Positions 4,370-63,015 of a DNA stretch of 64,000 nucleotides are shown one piece after another. Each line of letters starts with the position of its first letter. Position 1 is the first letter of the stretch. The stretch is from positions 180,942 through 244,941 of the forward strand of contig WELB01000111.1 of assembly GCA_009602725.1 (NCBI GenBank), given 5' to 3'. Both the position numbers and the translations under genes were made by a program. Source of the stretch: Spirogloea muscicola (lineage: Eukaryota > Streptophyta > Zygnematophyceae > Spirogloeales > Spirogloeaceae). Under the pieces are notes generated by a model. That model saw only the letters and a list, made by a program, of their open reading frames with translations, had not been told where the DNA came from and made no database searches.

Positions 4370-4710
4370 GAGCTCTTCTTCTTCTTTGTTTGCCCTAAAC
4401 TCTGCCTGAACACTGTGTCGGCTTGAATTGGCCTCCATATCATTTCATGCGCCCTGCGCGCCTTCTCTCTTCTTTGTGGGTACAATCTATCTTGGGCTGC
4501 CCTTCTACATCCATCGCCTGCCCCTTCTGAGACCTTCGTGCCGGCAGAGCCCTCGCTGCTGCCTCTGGCTCTGGCCAGGGGACCCACTTCAACGAGCCTA
4601 GCCTCTCCGACCTGCGGCTGCTTAGCAGAGGTTACTGAGTGATTCTCCTGTAGCTCTTTGGATTTTGTTCATTCTTTTTTGGCTGGCTTCTGCCAGCCCC
4701 TCTCTTCTGG
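4370..4710 (+). mobile_element. Truncated 3' end of RLE retrotransposon, subfamily B
   Basis: At 4540-4638 the frame reads AGRALAAASGSGQGTHFNEP, SLSDLRLLSRGY, stop. This is the C-terminus of a sister subfamily of the full-length element that follows. After the stop comes a 3' UTR with the family stem-loop (GGCTGGCTTCTGCCAGCC, about 4680-4700) and a CTCTTCT end. Upstream, 4405-4480 carries another recurrent motif of the window (GCCTGAACA...GAATTGGCC...CATGCGCCC). The full-length element begins directly after this tail, so the copies lie head to tail. Confidence 0.75.
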
Positions 4711-7700
4711 AGGATCCTGGAGGATCCGACTTTGCCACAGGCGCGCTAGGTCGAGGGCGTCGCCGCCGCCGCCCCTCCTAAACCCCGGGCCGTCGCCGGC
4801 GTCGCTGCCGGCGGCGCCCGCCATGGGGTCCGCGGCGCGCCGGTCTCTCGCACCCGCCGCCCTCGCCTCCGCCGCCCCGCTCCCCGTCGCCTCAACCGCG
4901 CGCCCCCGGCGCCGTCGACGGAGCCCGAGTCCGGAGTGGCTTCAGGAGTCGCTCCAGGCCAAGCATTGGTGTGAGGCGGTCCGGGCGCCTCGCCCCCGAC
5001 TCAGGCAGGAGCGAGGCGCTGCGCCTCCGCCGCCAGCGCCGCCCGACCTTCATGTCCCCGCGTTGCTCCCCGCCGTGGTAGCCGCCGCCTGCCTCCGCTT
5101 CATCTGCAGGCCCGCTCCGCCGCCGCCGCCGCCGCCATTCCCCCTCCACGCGACACCGCCATCCACCGCAACGCCGCCACCGCTCCCCCCCTCACCACCG
5201 CCGCCGCCACAACCGCCTGCGGCGTCAGAGGGCGTGCAGTGCCCTCGCTGTCCAAAATTGTGCAAAAATGCACATGGTCTTGCGATCCATGCGCACTCCT
5301 GCTTGAAGCGCGCCGGCATCGCCGCCGCGGCGGCTGCTGCGGCAGTCGCGGCAAGCGGCCCCCCCGTCCTTGCTCAGGCCGTCCCCGCTCCGGAGCAGGA
5401 GCATCACTCGGAGGAGCATATATCGCCTCCAGCCCCAGAGATGTGTGGGGCACCCGCTTTATTGACTCCGCCCTCGAGACATGATGGGCCCCCTGAGGTG
5501 AACCCAATCCCTCCGCAGGGTGCACCGTCGTATGAGCACGAAGCCGCCCCTCATCTTCCCGCGGGTGTTGTGCCTCTCGTGGAAACAGGGCTGCCGTCCC
5601 CACCGCCATCGCCGCCGTCACCTCCTCCGCCGCCGCCGTCGCCTCCGCTACCCCAGCACCCACCACCGTTGAGCCAGTCATCGGCGCCGCCCCCGTCGCC
5701 GCCGCCTCCACCCTCGCCGAGCGAGCCAGCGCCACCGCCGCCGCCTTCACCGGCCTCGCCCGACCCCCCGCGGTGCCAATACTGCACGAAGCCCTACACC
5801 ACGCGGTCAGGCCGGACCCTCCATGAACGGGCCTGCGTGTGCAACAACAACCGTGCGGAGCAGGCGCGGGGCGCAGCTGCTGCAGGTGGCCGCCGGGGCC
5901 GGCCAGGCCGGCCAGTCCCACCCGCGCCGTCCCCACCCACGCCTCAGCACTGGCAGTGGCTGGCCGGCCTCGACCTGGCAGCCGTCCACCGCCAGGCGGC
6001 CCTCCCGCTCGTCCGCCACGTTCCCCGCTGGGTGCGTCCACACATTCGCCGCGCGCTTCGCCCGGCGATGCAGCGGATTGTCCGAGACCATCGGGACGAG
6101 GCGGCCTGGAAGCAGTTCCTCCTCTTCCCCCGGCTACTGCTCGGGCGCGTCCCCAACGACGGCCGCCGGCAGGGCCAGCAGCCCCTCCTGGAGCGCGTCC
6201 AGATGTTCGAGGGCGGCCAGTGGGAGGAGCTTCTGGCACGCCACGATGCAGCGGTGGCCGCCTCGGCGGCAGACCATGGGGCCACGCGGGCCGCGCCAGC
6301 CGGGGCCGCCAATGTCCGCCGGGCGCTACGCTTCGGCCATGCGGGCGAGTTGTCCAGGGCGGTCCAGGCCCTGGACGACTCGGTGCTGGCGCCCACCAAC
6401 GCCGCAACGCGGGCGGCCCTGGACTCCCTGCACCCTCCGGCGCGCAACCCCCTGCCCCCGTGGCTGGACACCTTCACCCCGCTGGAGGAGGTGGTCCTCG
6501 ACGCCGACGCCCTGCGGCAGGCCCTGCAGAGCAGCCGCCGCGCAGCCGCTGGAGGTCCTTCCCACATGCTCACCGAGCACCTCCGGGAAATCTTCTTGGA
6601 GGGGGACGCTGCCGACTTCGCGGCGCTCCACCAGGTGTGCCAGCTCCTAGCTCGCGACCAGGTCCCAGCCAGCGTTCGGGACGTCCTGTGCGCCAGTACA
6701 CTGCTGGCGCTCAGCAAGGCCGGCGGAGGGGTCCGGCCCATCGCCATCGGGGAGGTACTCTACCGTCTGGTGGGGCGCGCACTCTGGCAACAGCACGCGG
6801 GGCAGGCCCAAGCACACCTGGCGCCCCAGCAGTTTGGCGCGGGGCTACGGAGCGGCGGCGAGACGGTCGTGCACGGCGTACGGGCCACCCTGGACCTGCA
6901 CCCGGAGTGGGTGGCTATGGCAGTCGATGTCCGCAATGCCTTCAATAGCGTTGATCGGGACGTCATTGCGGAGGAGCTGAGAGAGGCCTTCCCCAGCCTT
7001 CTACCCTTCTTCAGGCTGGGGTACGGTCGGCCAAGTGACCTGCTGTGGCGGACGGAGGGGGGAGCGGTGGAGACCCTCCACTCCACCAGGGGTGCACGTC
7101 AAGGGGATCCACTCGCTGGATTCTACTACGCGCTGGCACACCATCGCGCGCTCCAGGCAACGGTCGCGGCTCACCCTGGCGTGCTGGTGCCGACGTACGC
7201 AGATGATACCACTCTGGTGGGACCGCCTGCAGACGTCGTGGCAGCCTTTGCTACCCTCCAGGTGCAGCTGGGCGCGATCGGCCTGGACATCAGGGCGGAC
7301 AAGTGCTGTGCCTGGTCCCCGGCAGGTCCCCTGCCAGCCCACCTGGGCCTGCCCGTGGGCTGCCAGACACCGGCCGAGGGCCTCACTCTCCTCGGCGTCC
7401 CCCTGGGCGCACCTGCCTTCGTGGCGGAGCAGCTGCAGGGGCGGCTGCAGGACCACCTCCGGCCGGCGGCCCGCCTGCACACGCTGAACGACATGCAGCT
7501 GGCAACCGCCATGCTGACCCGGTGCATCGCGCAGCGGCCCCACTACCTGGCCCGCACCGTCCTTCCCTCACCGGCGGTGACGGCAGCGTATGAGGCCTTC
7601 GACACCGGCATCATGGCGGCCGCAGCCTCCCTCGTGCAGCACCCGGCGTTCCTCACCACCCAAGCTGCGCAGCTGCAGGCCAGCCTGCCGATCAGTCGTG

Positions 7701-8899
7701 GCGGCTTGGGATGCCGCTCAGTTGCCCGCGTCTGTGAGGCGGCCTTCCTGGGAAGCTGGGCGCAGGTGGCCGCCCCCATGTGTCAGCGGTTCCTCGTGCA
7801 CGGACAACGCGCCCTGGAGCGGGCGGCAGCCGATGTGGAGACAGGCCAACTCCCCTTCCAAGTCGCCCTCCGCACTGCCCGCGACAGGCTCCTGCAGGTC
7901 CACCCCAACATGTCCGAGCAGACTGTTCCTTTCCGGCACCTCGCCCACACTCCAGACCTGCGGGCTCAGGCACGCTTCACGGCGTTGGTCGAGAAGGCGG
8001 CCTCCGACCAGGCGGTGGAGCTTCTCCCTCCGTCTGACGTTCGCGGGCGTGCTCGGCTTCTCTCCGCCTCTTCCCCTGGGGCGGCGGCGTGGCTCCAAGC
8101 GCTCCCACTCTATGCCGCACTTACCATGCCCGACGAGGTCTACCGGACGGCGGTGCATCGGCTCTTGGGGCTCCTCCCTCCCTGCCTTACAGGTGTCACA
8201 CAGTGCGAGTGCGGCGCCCGGCACGCCGACCCTGCGGAGCTGGCCGCGCACATGCTCCGTTGCGCCCACGGAGGCGAGAGGACCGCTTCCCATGATCTTT
8301 TGCGCGATGGTATGCAGGGGGTGTTCATAGAGGCGGGCTTCAAGGTGGCGGTGGAGTGCTCCTCAGTCATGCCCATCCTGCGGGGCGAGGACGGCCGGTC
8401 GCACACCCGGCGCGCCGACCTGGTCGCTATCCTGCCCAGCGGCGGTCCCCGCATCATCACTGATGTGGTGACAACGGACAGCTACGACTCCGGCAACCCC
8501 ACCAGGTCGGCGTCGTTTGCAGGGCATGCGGTCGGCCTGGCAGCCCGGGCAAAAGAGAAAAAATATGCCGATCACCCGGTCGGTGATGAGTTCGCGGCCC
8601 TGGCGATAGATGTTCACGGGGCCTTCGGCAGCCGCTGGCTGGATCTCCTCCAGCGGCTTGCTCGTCAGGCTATTGATCGGCGGTCGGGTCCGCCCGGGGC
8701 GCTGCCCGGCTTCAACGCCGCCGGGTCGCTCGCCCAGGTCTTTCGCATGCGCTTGGCGGTATCGTTCCAGCGATCCCTTGCCCACGCTGTCCACACGCGC
8801 GCAGGACGCGCTCTGGCCGCGGCCTCCGGGTCTCGGCGGAGTGCCTCCTTCCCTGCCTCGAGCTACTCGGACCTGATGTTGCTCACTCGCGGGTACTGA
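4658..8899 (+). CDS. Non-LTR retrotransposon polyprotein: zinc fingers, RT, restriction-like endonuclease
   Basis: Uninterrupted 1413-codon frame; the real start may be the ATG near 4823, because the first residues lie in the tail of the preceding copy. Seen in order: C2HC finger (C195, C198, H211, C215); long Pro/Ala-rich linker; second C2HC finger (C373, C376, H389, C393); reverse transcriptase from about residue 650 with motif A AVDVRNAFNS (D757), TRGARQGDPLAG, and motif C YADDT (D849, D850); CCHC knuckle (C1183, C1185, H1198, C1202); then RRADLV...IITDVV (D1254 and D1269), the PD-(D/E)XK spacing of R2/NeSL-type restriction-like endonucleases. The C-terminus ends SDLMLLTRGY. No stop or frameshift is seen, so the copy may be active. 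Known R2-group proteins copy RNA at a nicked target. Its target here is unknown and clade assignment needs a tree. Confidence 0.9.
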   Translation: MDFVHSFLAGFCQPLSSGGSWRIRLCHRRARSRASPPPPLLNPGPSPASLPAAPAMGSAARRSLAPAALASAAPLPVASTARPRRRRRSPSPEWLQESLQAKHWCEAVRAPRPRLRQERGAAPPPPAPPDLHVPALLPAVVAAACLRFICRPAPPPPPPPFPLHATPPSTATPPPLPPSPPPPPQPPAASEGVQCPRCPKLCKNAHGLAIHAHSCLKRAGIAAAAAAAAVAASGPPVLAQAVPAPEQEHHSEEHISPPAPEMCGAPALLTPPSRHDGPPEVNPIPPQGAPSYEHEAAPHLPAGVVPLVETGLPSPPPSPPSPPPPPPSPPLPQHPPPLSQSSAPPPSPPPPPSPSEPAPPPPPSPASPDPPRCQYCTKPYTTRSGRTLHERACVCNNNRAEQARGAAAAGGRRGRPGRPVPPAPSPPTPQHWQWLAGLDLAAVHRQAALPLVRHVPRWVRPHIRRALRPAMQRIVRDHRDEAAWKQFLLFPRLLLGRVPNDGRRQGQQPLLERVQMFEGGQWEELLARHDAAVAASAADHGATRAAPAGAANVRRALRFGHAGELSRAVQALDDSVLAPTNAATRAALDSLHPPARNPLPPWLDTFTPLEEVVLDADALRQALQSSRRAAAGGPSHMLTEHLREIFLEGDAADFAALHQVCQLLARDQVPASVRDVLCASTLLALSKAGGGVRPIAIGEVLYRLVGRALWQQHAGQAQAHLAPQQFGAGLRSGGETVVHGVRATLDLHPEWVAMAVDVRNAFNSVDRDVIAEELREAFPSLLPFFRLGYGRPSDLLWRTEGGAVETLHSTRGARQGDPLAGFYYALAHHRALQATVAAHPGVLVPTYADDTTLVGPPADVVAAFATLQVQLGAIGLDIRADKCCAWSPAGPLPAHLGLPVGCQTPAEGLTLLGVPLGAPAFVAEQLQGRLQDHLRPAARLHTLNDMQLATAMLTRCIAQRPHYLARTVLPSPAVTAAYEAFDTGIMAAAASLVQHPAFLTTQAAQLQASLPISRGGLGCRSVARVCEAAFLGSWAQVAAPMCQRFLVHGQRALERAAADVETGQLPFQVALRTARDRLLQVHPNMSEQTVPFRHLAHTPDLRAQARFTALVEKAASDQAVELLPPSDVRGRARLLSASSPGAAAWLQALPLYAALTMPDEVYRTAVHRLLGLLPPCLTGVTQCECGARHADPAELAAHMLRCAHGGERTASHDLLRDGMQGVFIEAGFKVAVECSSVMPILRGEDGRSHTRRADLVAILPSGGPRIITDVVTTDSYDSGNPTRSASFAGHAVGLAARAKEKKYADHPVGDEFAALAIDVHGAFGSRWLDLLQRLARQAIDRRSGPPGALPGFNAAGSLAQVFRMRLAVSFQRSLAHAVHTRAGRALAAASGSRRSASFPASSYSDLMLLTRGY

Positions 8900-16377: not shown

Positions 16378-19661
<3,284 letters not shown>

Positions 19662-22154: not shown

Positions 22155-22350
22155 AAGCGCGGCCAGATTGACTGGTGGCTGGGAACGGCCAGCCCAAAAG
22201 ACGCTAGAAAGAAAGTGCTCTAAACTTTTGGGCTGGCTTTTGGGCTTTGCCAGCCCTCTTCTCTCTTCGCACTCAGGCTCCCTCAGACCTTGTCCATTCC
22301 TTTGGGCTGGCCTTTCCCGGCCACCAGTCAATCTGGCCGCGCTTCTTCTA
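22155..22350. repeat. Inverted pair of retrotransposon 3' tails
   Basis: The left arm (about 22157-22200) is the reverse complement of the right arm (about 22297-22348): GCGCGGCCAGATTGACTGG ... CCAGTCAATCTGGCCGCGC. The spacer holds another hairpin copy (22220-22255, TTTGGGCTGGC...GCCAGCCC). The right arm unit recurs at 43893-43977 and, as a defined insertion, at 60674-60734. Confidence 0.75.
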
Positions 22351-37009: not shown

Positions 37010-37230
37010 TTTTTGAATCAAACGAAGGCCAAATGGCCAAGTACAAAGGCAAGCACATCTGAAGACCTACATAAGCCTACACAGATTGACCCGCTCGGTA
37101 ATTACGGGTCAATACAATAAGATCGTAATCAATGCCTGAATACTAGATGGCAGATACGAAGCCTTTCTGCCACCAACTAGAGCTCGCCCAGCTTTCTGGT
37201 GCAAAGCTTTAGCCTGAGCAAAGGGAGAGA
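37010..37230 (-). repeat. Dispersed repeat family DR1, copy 1
   Basis: Shares with four other places the order GGCCAAATGGCCAAGTAC, ACACA, TGACCCGCTCGGTAATTACG GGTCA (hairpin about 37086-37110), GATGCCTGAATACTAGATG, CTGCCACCAACTAGAGCTCG, CAGCTTTCTGGTG. This copy is short and lies between the copia pieces. Confidence 0.75.
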
Positions 37231-43370: not shown

Positions 43371-43980
43371 CCTGCTTTTGTTGGGCTGGCCTTGCATACC
43401 CCTCAGCCCTTTGTGCGCTAATAGGAGCTACTTCATTTCTCTGGCTTCTGTTGGACCCAAGATGGCCCGGATTTCCCACAGATCAACGAATCTCCTAATA
43501 GGTGGTGCTACTTGTGAGAGGCCTGCCCAACCTAGATTGGTCTGCCAGCCCCTCTCTTCTATTTTTGAGCTCTTTCGTTCTTGTTAGCTGTTCCAACAAG
43601 GGCGATGGCCTGTGTAAGGCCAGCCCAAATGGTACCGGGAAAACACTGGACAAAGGGACAGAGGAACTCGTCGTCTTGAACAATCTGTATGCACCTGGCT
43701 GGCTTGTACAGCTGCTCTATTTCATTCTCGATGCAGCGGTCCCTTGCCTTCGCGGTTCACTTGCGCGCAGGCCGAGCTTTGGCGGCGGCCTCCGGCTTCC
43801 GTCAGGGCGACGTCTTTCCGCCAGCTACTCAGACTTGCATGTCCTGACTAGAGGTTACTGAGCGTTCCCTGGCTGATGTCTTGGTCCTAGTCGTTCGCAC
43901 TCAGGCTCCCTCAGACCTTGTCCATTCCTTTGGGCTGGCCTTTCCCAGCCACCAGTCAATCTGGCCGCGCTTCGTTTTTT
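43371..43980 (+). mobile_element. Cluster of truncated RLE retrotransposon ends
   Basis: At 43375-43410 and 43545-43565 lie decayed hairpin tails. 43735-43861 is a frameshifted C-terminus ending SASYSDLHVLTRGY, stop, like the full-length element (subfamily A). 43893-43977 is a tail unit (GACCTTGTCCATTCCTTTGG, GGCTGGCCTTTCCCAGCC, AATCTGGCCGCGCTTC) nearly identical to 22265-22348. Confidence 0.75.
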
Positions 43981-47172: not shown

Positions 47173-47691
<519 letters not shown>

Positions 47692-58984: not shown

Positions 58985-59450
58985 TACTTCGTGTATTTGA
59001 AACAAACGTAGGCCAAATGGCCAAGTACAAAGGCAAACACAGCTAAAGATTCACATATCCTACAGCAGATTGACCCGCTCAGTAACCACGGGTCAAAATA
59101 TGAAAGGTCACTAATCGATGCATGAATCCTAGATGTCAGATACGAAGCCCTTCTGCCACCAACTAGAGCTCGCCCAGCTTTCTGGTGCAGGTCCTGAGCA
59201 CGCTGCAAACAGGCCAAAACTCAACGTCGCAAAAACGACAGTTGTGCAGCTGGCAAGCCCATCTCAGCCGGAAACACATCTGCACGTCGTGTGTAGCCTA
59301 GATTGGCAATGTTTTGAAGAAGATTGTGGGAACGAGGACCCAGACAGCCAGAGCTATCAATTGCTGCTGGCAGGAGCTGATCGCATTGGGGGTAATCGGA
59401 GTAGTGCTGCATCTTTCGTTGTCCTGCACCGCCCACTGCGTGACCAGCGA
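58985..59450 (-). repeat. Dispersed repeat family DR1, copy 4 (long)
   Basis: GGCCAAATGGCCAAGTACAA, hairpin TGACCCGCTCAGTAACCACG GGTCA (about 59071-59095), the CTAGAGCTCG...CTTTCTGGTG block, then an extended part. Minus-strand peptides include AEMGLPAAQLSFLRR and ALVGGRRASYLTSRIHASIS. Confidence 0.8.
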
Positions 59451-59634
59451 TGTGTGTCGATGCTGGACCTTTATACGCCTCCGTAACAACATATCGTCGA
59501 CCAGGGCCCGTGGTCCTCCATCAGGTTGCACGCCCACAATGTCAAGTGTGCGGCAATTATAACGTCCCTGGGCGTCCATAGTGATAGGCATGATATTGTT
59601 GACTTCCACGACTCATAGAAAAACAATTTTGTGT

Positions 59635-60032: not shown

Positions 60033-60500
60033 AAAAAAGAGGGGCTAGCAAAGCCAGCCCAGAAAAGAATGAACAATATCCAGAGGCCAAAAAGAACTCC
60101 GGCTCCTTCAGACCTTGTCCATTCGTTGTTCAAAAAATGGTGCCGAAAAGAAAAACTACACACCAATTCACGAAATGATGCAGATGGAAGCTCAGTATCC
60201 ACGAGTGAGCAAGAGCAGCCCGTACTCTCTATGGGCTAGCAATCTCTTCTTTCCTTCTTCCATTTTTTCTTCACTAACTTGATCCACTGTGTTCTATAGA
60301 GCTTTCTCTGGTTCTCTGGTTCATTTCTTTTCTGGGCCGGCTTTACCAGCCCCTATGCTCAATGGGCGAGCCCTTTCTTCTTCTTTCTCTGCCTGAACAG
60401 TGTATTGGCTTGAATTGGCCTCCCTTTCATATCATGCGCCCAGCGCGCCTTCTCTCTTTCTCGGGGCCCTTCGAACTTTGTTCAATTTTATTTCTGGGCT
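60033..60500. repeat. Further retrotransposon tails
   Basis: A reverse tail at 60033-60085 (CAAAGCCAGCCCAGAAAAGA) and a forward tail at about 60320-60390 (GGGCCGGCTTTACCAGCCCC, CAATGGGCGAGCCCTTTC). The GAATTGGCC...CATGCGCCC motif lies at 60395-60460. No gene seen. Confidence 0.6.
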
Positions 60501-60504
60501 GGCC

Positions 60505-60880
60505 TCTGACAGGCCCCTCTGGCTATTGACACCCATGGGGCGTTGGGCGCTCGGTTGCTCGAGCTGCTCAACCAGCTCGCCCGCCACGCCATCGCCCCCC
60601 GCTTCCAGGGGAGCCGGTGGACTTTCCTGCAGCCGGGTCGCTCACGCAGGTGTACCGCATGCGCGTGGCCGTCAGAAGAAAGCGCGGCCAGATTGACTGG
60701 TGGCTGGGAAAGGTCAGCCCAAAAGAATGGACAAGGCCGTCTCGCTGCAGAGGTCTATGGCCCGCGCGCTCCACCTGCGTGCCGGCAGAGCCCTCGCTGC
60801 TGCCTCTGGCTCTGGCCAGGGGACCCACTTCCAGGAGCCTAGCTCTTATGATCTGCGGCTGCTAAGCAGGGGTTACTGAG
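60505..60880 (+). mobile_element. RLE retrotransposon 3' end, subfamily B, with nested 61-bp insertion
   Basis: Reads IDTHGALGARLLELLNQLAR, frameshift, PVDFPAAGSLTQVYRMRVAV, an interruption, then SLQRSMARALHLRAGRALAA, ASGSGQGTHFQEPSSYDLRL, LSRGY, stop near 60879. The interruption is an insertion with target duplication (separate entry). Confidence 0.85.
60667..60741 (-). mobile_element. 61-bp retrotransposon tail inserted with 7-bp target duplication
   Basis: GGCCGTC at 60667-60673 is repeated at 60735-60741. Between them lie 61 bases whose reverse complement begins TTGTCCATTC, contains the GGGCTGACC...GGTCAGCC-like hairpin region and ends GCGCTTTCTTCT. Removing the insert and one GGCCGTC restores RMRVAVSLQRS in frame. 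The same unit occurs at 22285-22350 and 43918-43977. Confidence 0.85.
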
Positions 60881-61640
60881 TGATTTGTAGCTGCTTTGTT
60901 TCTTTTTGTGCTTGGGGGTCAGGGGAAGCGCTGTTAAAGATTTCTCGTACTTTTATTCATTCCTTTTTGGGCTGGCTTTTCCAGCCCCTATCCTCAATGG
61001 GCGAGCCCTTTTTCTGACAGCCACCGCCCTCTACTGTATGCTTCCAGTAGAGGGCGGTGAATTGCCAGCCAGGCACAGAAAGAATGGACGGCAGGCCTCG
61101 CCATCATTGCGGCTCCGCCTGAGGCGGGGCTGCCGTGCCGCACGGGCCCGCACGTGGTTGGAGAAGGCGGGCGAGGCCGAGCTTCGGGCGAGTTGCAGCC
61201 ATGGCGGGCACGCGCGGGAGCAGGCGCCCAAGTGGGGGCCGTTGGCTTCGGCCAGCCTGGCCACCGGCAGCGGCGCCTGTGCGGCACTGGGTAGGTGAGC
61301 CGGCGGGCGGATGGAACAGTGGGGAAGAAGCACTTCCCGCAACGGGGCCCGATGGCCACAAAAGCGCAGGAAGAAGCTCTGACAACAGGGACGCTTGATG
61401 GCCTTCAAGGCCAGTCCAATGGCCAGCCCCGGAGGGGCCGGCCCGCCATATTCGCGGCCGCGGAGGTGGGGGCCGTCTCACGAGGCCCTGGCGCGCTCCG
61501 GTCGAGCCGGGGCCAGCCGTGTCGCGCGGCAAGGAAGGAGCTCTTCCTTGTCCATTCTTTTTTTGGCCTGGCTTGTCCTGCCCCTATCCTTAATAAGCGA
61601 GCCCGTTCTTCTTTTCTTCTTCCGAGAGACGCAGGCAGAC
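60881..61640. repeat. Retrotransposon tails and GC-rich spacer
   Basis: Forward tails at 60955-61015 (GGGCTGGCTTTTCCAGCCCC, CAATGGGCGAGCC) and 61550-61612 (TTTTTTGGCCTGGCTTGTCC, AATAAGCGAGCC). The GC-rich stretch 61090-61540 has chance open frames on both strands. No gene supported. Confidence 0.5.
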
Positions 61641-61859: not shown

Positions 61860-62430
61860 GACTCTGCCTGAACAATGTATTGGCTTGAATTGGCCTCCCT
61901 TTCAATTCATGCGCCCCGCGCGCCTTCTCTCTTTCGGGCTGGTTGTTCCAGCCCCTATTCTCAATGGGCGAGCACTTTCTTCTCCCCGGCTGCACGCCTG
62001 GGCCCGGGCTTCCCCGCCACTCAGCGCCACGCCGGGAGGCGGCCCCGCGCGCCGCATGCCCGCCCTGCTCACGTCACACTGTTGCCTTAGCCACGCTCCC
62101 CTTGTAGCTCCACTTTTTGCGCACTAGCTTTTGCCTGAACAACGTACTGGCTTGGGATTGGCCACCCTTTCATTTCGAGAGAAGACGCGCGGAGCGCATG
62201 AAATGAAAGGCCAATTCAAGCCACTACAGTGTTCAGGAAGAGTCTTGTGCAAAATAAACAAGGCTACATGATACGGAGACCTAAACTGCTCCCCGCGCGC
62301 CTTCCCCCTGCTACAGGCCGCGACGCCCCCCAGCCGGCCCAGAACAGCTCTTGCTTAAGAGAGAAGGCGCGCGGTGCGCATGAAATTAAAGCGAGGCCAA
62401 TTCAAGCCATTACATTGTTCAGGCAGAAAA
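61860..62430. repeat. GAATTGGCC motif copies, one as a palindrome, plus a tail
   Basis: 61863-61932 is a forward motif copy. 61930-61985 is a tail (CGGGCTGGTTGTTCCAGCCC, CACTTTCTTCT). 62125-62230 is a palindrome of two motif copies. 62360-62430 is a reversed copy (GGCGCGCGGTGCGCATGAAA). Confidence 0.65.
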
Positions 62431-63015
62431 TGCAGAAAGTGCAAAGAATGCAGCGCAAAGAATGTGGCTACATGAAAAGGCAATGGCTATGAGAGGCCAG
62501 CCCAAAGCAATGTACAAGGACCGAAAGGGGCTGAAACCCGCAAAAAGCATGAAACATCTCCTGATGACTCCTGCGAATGGGCTGCTGGCATCCGACTCTT
62601 GGGCGTGAAAAGTTGCGCAGCTCGGGCTCGGTCTCCAACTCCACAGCATGCGCACCGCCTGACCCCACCCCCCCGCCGTCGCCAGCTCGTCGCCGTTGCG
62701 CGCGGCCACGTCGCACGCCCTGCGCCAGCGAGCGGGGCCCTAAATATATATTAGGGCTGGCCTTTCCCAGCCACCGCCCTCTCCTGGAATCGCCTTTCTC
62801 TCTATATATAGGCCCCCGTTGTCGCGGCTAGCCGGCCGACCCGGATGCGGGCCGGTCGCCCGCGGCGTGGCGCCAGCGCCGTCGGGCGAAGCCGATAATA
62901 AATAGGCGCATGCCGCCGGTGCCGGCGGCTGCCACAGTGGGGGCGAGCGGTGGGTGCGGGGAGCGGCTGGTTCTCAAAGTGGTGGAAGCGGCCGGGCGGC
63001 GCGGGCGGCTGTCGC
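62431..63015. other. Spacer with hairpin remnants
   Basis: A reverse tail at 62483-62522 and a forward remnant at 62750-62775 (TTAGGGCTGGCCTTTCCCAG). The GC-rich stretch 62630-63015 shows no supported gene. Confidence 0.4.

Follow-up and report, generated by a model that had tools for sequence, protein, structure and literature searches.

A 61-nt insertion in Spirogloea muscicola is very probably a severely 5'-truncated copy of a LINE

Introduction

CR1 is a LINE of the APE type, and eel UnaL2 is a stringent-type LINE whose 3' tail carries a stem-loop. In Anolis carolinensis, many CR1 insertions of less than 50 bp that keep the 3' end were inferred and ascribed to a premature end of reverse transcription (passages of PMC5389967). 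The proteins of the zebrafish elements ZfL2-1 and ZfL2-2 bind the stem-loop of the cognate 3' tail, as described in an excerpt of PMC4176376. Truncated copies of R2, a LINE with a restriction-like endonuclease (RLE), are often found to have one to five bases in common with their target at the 5' junction, according to an extract of PMC2718515, and sections of PMC4640811 describe the RLE as an endonuclease of the PD-(D/E)XK type and the HERO clade as holding many non-specific elements.

The insertion studied here is 61 nt long, is flanked by 7-bp direct repeats and lies in the window, by which we mean the whole stretch of 64,000 nucleotides of S. muscicola DNA that was analysed. We argue that it is very probably a severely 5'-truncated copy of a LINE, itself probably of the RLE type, that was made by target-primed reverse transcription. 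A related LINE in the window appears to have the same organization as the RLE-type LINEs R2, NeSL/Utopia and HERO, with one ORF, an N-terminal finger-like motif, a central reverse transcriptase (RT) and C-terminal Cys/His and putative PD-(D/E)XK-like motifs, and its domains seem to follow the order given for Utopia in sections of PMC4640811. The targets differ: R2 inserts in 28S rDNA and Utopia in U2 genes, whereas a set of 49 insertions examined here lies in many different sequences and not at the 28S rDNA site of the R2 clade. As in Anolis CR1, truncated copies retain the 3' end and can be very short; unlike that APE-type element of a vertebrate, the family described here has an endonuclease that looks RLE-type. 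The LINE family is new (word searches of the open-licence literature, run without the organism name, found no paper describing it), and severe truncation to less than 50 bp has already been reported for Anolis CR1 in the passages of PMC5389967.

Results

The sequence-only reading of this DNA had proposed that exact copies of GGCCGTC flank a 61-base insert, that the insert is a retrotransposon 3' tail with both ends fixed, and that its removal restores the reading frame of the surrounding sequence. The positions of the features discussed are collected in Table 1. The region 60600-60800 was used as a query against the whole genome (153.1 Mb, 471 contigs), with 40 of 2741 candidates scored, so that all counts are lower bounds. 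At least 77 matches were found, at least 34 of which end at query base 74. In 33 of these 34 left-flank matches there is an adjoining match whose first base is query base 136, and the overlap is exactly 7 bases in 33 of 33 (counted by hand); the sole exception, without an adjoining right match, is C407:25254-25328. The chance of a 7-base duplication at fixed ends is 4^-7. With the exact 7-bp overlap present in 33 relatives from this genome that lack the interruption, neither the empty site nor the duplication of 7 bp is in doubt. The comparison with uninterrupted copies thus bore out the claimed GGCCGTC duplication as a true target-site duplication (TSD) and supports the reading of a 3' tail with both ends fixed. 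Four empty sites for the 61-nt insertion were also found in other sampled loci. Read on the minus strand, the insert is TTGTCCATTC...GGCCGCGCTTTCTTCT.

Table 1. Positions of the features discussed, numbered within the window
Feature	Position	Strand	Remarks
ORF of 1413 aa of a related LINE	4658..8899	plus	RVT_1; C2H2 finger near the N-terminus (weak); H..C and R..D-X14-D..K motifs near the C-terminus; did not give rise to the subfamily A tail
Further tail copy of subfamily A	22288..22349	plus	
3' portion of a further truncated copy of subfamily A, longer than the others	43894..43973	plus	
Older type D tail, left half	60496..60512	plus	GGGCTGGCCTCTGACAG; interrupted by the host copy, resumes at 61021 with CCACCGCCCTCTACTG; by eye against 16 type D tails
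Host copy, left TSD	60505..60512	.	TCTGACAG
Host, 5'-truncated LINE copy	60513..61012	plus	last ~100 ORF codons, stop codon, 3' UTR and type B tail (~60956-61012)
Left TSD copy of the 61-nt insertion	60667..60673	.	GGCCGTC; identical to the 7-base overlap at the 33 empty sites
61-nt insertion	60674..60734	minus	5'-truncated subfamily A LINE 3' UTR, ends CTTTCTTCT
Right TSD copy of the 61-nt insertion	60735..60741	.	GGCCGTC
Host copy, right TSD	61013..61020	.	TCTGACAG

The claim about the reading frame held locally. The host frame runs as ...GSLTQVYRMRVAV (60515-60673) and continues over the empty site, in the same frame, as SLQRSMARALH... (60742-60879). However, a stop lies upstream in that frame (PSGY*), indicating that the host copy has at least one other break, so removal of the insert would not give back an intact gene. 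The host copy matches positions 2150-2304 of locus L025, inside a piece aligned to residues 1254-1413 of the related ORF, and its own TSD is 8 bp. Judged by sequence, the locus is made of three nested insertions, in which a type D tail received a truncated B copy and the B copy received the 61-nt A copy. Different TSDs (TGCAGC, TCTGCA, TCTGCAGC and GACGGCC) lie within ~20 bp of the same coding site at L002, L003, L004 and window positions 60667-60741; no hot spot is claimed, because L002-L004 were chosen with that site as the query.

Other repeats were noticed in the window. A second dispersed repeat, pyrimidine-ended and ending CGCGCGCCTTCTCTCTT, is present at 60387-60460, 61862-61935 and 4399-4471 and in reverse at 62208-62287 and 62357-62437; it also occurs within inserts with a duplicated target at loci L117 and L122 and is possibly another LINE or SINE tail. 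Three runs of T (18587-18709, 47175-47297 and 47569-47691) are exactly 123 bases each, an identical length that suggests masking, filler or an assembly artefact.

A genome search with the 61-mer, in which 40 of 614 candidates were scored, found 39 places besides the window that are ~98% identical over 59-61 bases. The 34-nt tail core occurs with at most 2 mismatches at 2594 places in the genome (1307 forward, 1287 reverse), and a backwards control occurs at 0. Longer copies show the tail as the last part of a 3' UTR, downstream of an ORF whose C-terminus is ...SRGY or ...TRGY, and were named subfamily A; going by these comparisons, the insert is the 3' UTR end of a LINE with multiple subfamilies. 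Tail types A-F, compared in the window and the sampled loci, have in common a GGGCTGG..CCAGCC hairpin and a pyrimidine-rich end, and differ in the linking segment. The hairpin recurs among them by sequence and not through compensatory changes. Types B, E and F have a strong outer stem, and types A, C and D a weak one; when this stem was examined for covariation, cognate pairs were not clearly better than swapped pairs. A 3' tail hairpin that appears to be shared by the subfamilies recalls the stringent-type LINEs. Four single tails folded only modestly better than shuffles (z -1.35, -3.32, -2.17 and -1.06). In the focal insert one G of the hairpin is changed to A, and the predicted fold lacks the hairpin.

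The sampled loci contain 171 distinct A tails, 165 after six at locus edges were dropped. A scattered 5' cut point less than 318 nt upstream of the core was found in 150 of these, while 11 reach further and four were left out because bases close to the junction were unread. Of the 150 truncated copies, 34 lie between direct repeats of at least 8 nt, vs ~4.8 expected with downstream flanks swapped. The sequence-only reading had suggested testing other copies for flanking duplications of 5-15 bp and a common 3' end; the 3' end is indeed shared and repeats are in excess, but in 100 of the 150 the repeat is shorter than 7 nt, leaving two thirds without a clear TSD. Stop rates were taken from perfect 34-mer copies at the loci of 100 places among the matches listed (contigs C1-C11), 97 copies after filters. 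Per nucleotide upstream of the core, the rate was 1.2% (11-30 nt), 1.6% (30-60), 1.1% (60-90) and 1.1% (90-140), then 0.7% and 0.5%, with stops within the hairpin concealed by the 34-mer requirement; 8 of the 97 copies reach 318 nt. The copies show the shared 3' end, the variable 5' truncation and the TSDs of variable length that characterize a LINE.

Pairwise comparison of all sampled loci yielded 143 candidates for an insertion that had duplicated its target. Removal of repeats left 126, of which 57 were tail-ended by a motif test. A strict set of 29 tail-ended insertions (at least three supporting alignments, a perfect TSD of at least 5 nt and a length of at most 400 nt) ranges from 18 to 386 nt with unextended TSDs of 5-12 bp, and 14 of the 29 are no longer than 62 nt; at least one member (L051, 59 nt) was not shown in tail orientation. 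Fully extended TSDs of the 49 insertions measure 5-14 bp, lengths that lean long because 22 of the 49 were picked for repeats of at least 8 nt. Some short insertions sit in repetitive or composite settings (the 18-mer of L011, the 41-mer of L084 and one of two 31-mers of L040). Plain ones with empty sites are 18 nt in L032, 31 nt in L040 and 17 nt in L042, the last with one TSD mismatch and hence outside the strict set. These 17-, 18- and 31-nt inserts are without the hairpin, the 31-mer having at most its final few bases. Together with the scattered 5' ends, they indicate that the length of an insert records where reverse transcription stopped. The proposal that the 3' tail alone is enough to mark an RNA for insertion therefore does not follow: the 97 copies form a continuum of 5' truncation, some inserts have no hairpin, and because an insert shows how far the RT went, finding a tail without anything else is no proof that the RNA template was tail-only too.

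The same data bear on the reading that a discrete SINE-like RNA of ~60-70 nt, consisting of the tail only, is mobilised in trans by the LINE protein, so that the insert would be a full-length tiny element. Six of the 150 truncated copies, the focal one included, begin at the same CCTTGTCC, genome counts fall steeply between ~60 and ~100 nt, and the hairpin is common to the tail types, all of which would suit such an RNA. On the other hand, sampled 5' ends are spread over distances of 11 to more than 318 nt, the stop rate changes only slowly along this stretch, no length dominates the sample, and the 17-, 18- and 31-nt inserts named above have no hairpin. The 5' ends are scattered and not fixed as in a SINE; we rejected this reading on that ground and regard it as very improbable. 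Still harder to credit is an introner, that is, an intron spliced out of the gene. The insert sits in coding sequence, and a GT..AG pair can be drawn by eye around it in the host frame (60671-60735, 65 nt, leaving 3 nt), but the host is a broken LINE copy and tail-ended insertions are found in coding, UTR and tail sequence at many lengths. From these varied sites and lengths, the element seems to carry no fixed splice sites, and the introner was rejected for its broken LINE host and the varied insertion contexts. A cut-and-paste DNA transposon, for example a MITE, that duplicates 7 bp of its target can be dismissed almost with certainty: the insert is short, repeated and exactly duplicated at its target, but the variable 5' ends already refute it, since copies share the 3' tail end while the other end varies by hundreds of bases. 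In addition, TSDs of the strict set differ in length (5 to 12), no terminal inverted repeats are seen by eye in the ends AGAAG...GACAA, and longer copies place the tail at the 3' end of an element whose relatives encode RT.

The choice of target agrees with a severely truncated LINE copy made by target-primed reverse transcription. In 62% of the 29 strict-set insertions the TSD opens with three pyrimidines (C or T), vs 22% of 1252 other positions in the same targets, a bias in line with base pairing between the nicked strand and the CUUUCUUCU end of the LINE RNA. At the focal site the target, GACGGCC, starts with GAC, not with pyrimidines, and the whole CTTTCTTCT end is retained there. The insert had also been taken to give the 3' terminus of the family. 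This terminus is complete at the focal site, whose target has no bases in common with the end of the tail, but among the 49 insertions the 3' ends vary from CTT to CTTTCTTCT, plus a few other forms. At the 5' junction, 15 of 26 copies (those with a repeat of at least 8 nt ending at most 3 nt from the truncation point) overlap the element by 1-3 bases, an uncontrolled count that resembles R2.

In the related ORF, RVT_1 matched with E 1.9e-14 over window positions 6500-7600 and 2.4e-13 over the whole 1413 aa, identifying an RT. The N-terminal C2H2 finger is weak (E 0.0055, below the curated cut-off). Over the whole of this single ORF, RVT_1 was the only domain at E 0.01 or better, and no APE endonuclease domain was found. 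Across a C-terminal alignment of 55 pieces, which counts the ORF among them and spans identities of 25-100% in the aligned stretch, the conserved residues are H1198 (9/9), C1202 (9/9), R1251 (19/20), D1254 (21/23), D1269 (25/27) and K1299 (35/35). This putative motif resembles the PD-(D/E)XK-like endonuclease of R2-type elements, and the R..D-X14-D..K spacing is what we take to be RLE-type spacing. A PDB profile search with the C-terminal domain gave no match, searches with 15 members gave no relevant Pfam match (a weak domain of unknown function in 2 of 15 and SVIP in 1 of 15), and a single-sequence AlphaFold model of the domain was unusable (pLDDT 36.8). A repeat family around GGCCAAATGGCCAAGTACAAAGGCAAGCACATC was noted at 37011, 45863, 56510, 58995 and 59636, and 59077-59460 weakly matches the C-terminus of the LINE ORF on the other strand.

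Genome-wide counts of 21-mers with at most 1 mismatch were 3519 near the tail end, 3177 at ~50-70 nt, 692 at ~90-110 nt, 624 at ~120-140 nt and 522 at ~210 nt. Between 3177 and 692 the counts drop more steeply than would be expected from the 97 sampled copies (71 to 45 of 97 uncorrected; about half corrected), and the later fall is flatter than in the sample, so there may be a surplus of 60-90-nt copies. The counts carry a bias, since some of the patterns also occur in related families and others have decayed in old copies. For the ~50-70-nt pattern, 8 of 89 matches in the sampled loci belong to other tails, and the bias may be larger genome-wide because the sampled loci were chosen for A tails.

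Copies also lie in head-to-tail chains. In 26 of the 150 truncated A copies another tail end lies at most 26 nt upstream, vs 1.8% of random positions in the sampled loci (349/19165) or 1.2% with a narrower tail-end motif. By our own reading, 15 of the 26 are directly joined, six have a spacer, three are other tails inserted in the A copy and two are tandem duplications. A repeat around the whole chain was sought up to 420 nt upstream in 20 script-picked cases, which include a few other arrangements such as tandem duplications; a repeat of at least 7 nt was present in 6 of 20 vs ~8.2 expected, showing no excess. At L054 (contig C1, ~1708268-1708616), three ~164-bp subfamily A 3' ends lie head to tail, apparently as a tandem duplication.

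Discussion

If the insert arose from a LINE by target-primed reverse transcription, the enzyme would nick one target strand, and the 3' end of the nicked target would usually pair with the CUUUCUUCU end of the LINE RNA, the focal target being an exception. Reverse transcription would begin at the paired 3' end and halt early, in the focal case after 61 nt. The second target strand would be cut 7 bp away, and repair would leave the 7-bp duplication. Low processivity of the enzyme would then be the cause of the short length. The focal insertion looks like an unexceptional copy that was aborted early, of a type found very often in this genome.

A broader reading, which we consider possible but rather doubtful, is that the LINE enzyme falls off so early (~1-1.6% per nucleotide near the tail) that most new copies are scars of ~17-150 nt, chained head to tail. 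The chains would be compatible with template jumping in vivo from one tail RNA to the next, or with a CTTTCTTCT tract that is hit by insertions again and again.

By analogy with the stringent LINEs of fish, and given that the hairpin recurs in diverged subfamilies, the tail may serve as a recognition signal. The content of a truncated insert should nevertheless not be taken as the minimal RNA signal. Insertions of less than 100 nt with TSDs are common in this genome; they are easily missed by repeat annotation and can be confused with MITEs, introners or indels. The focal insertion, proven by its empty sites, offers a way to read reverse-transcription stops in this LINE family.
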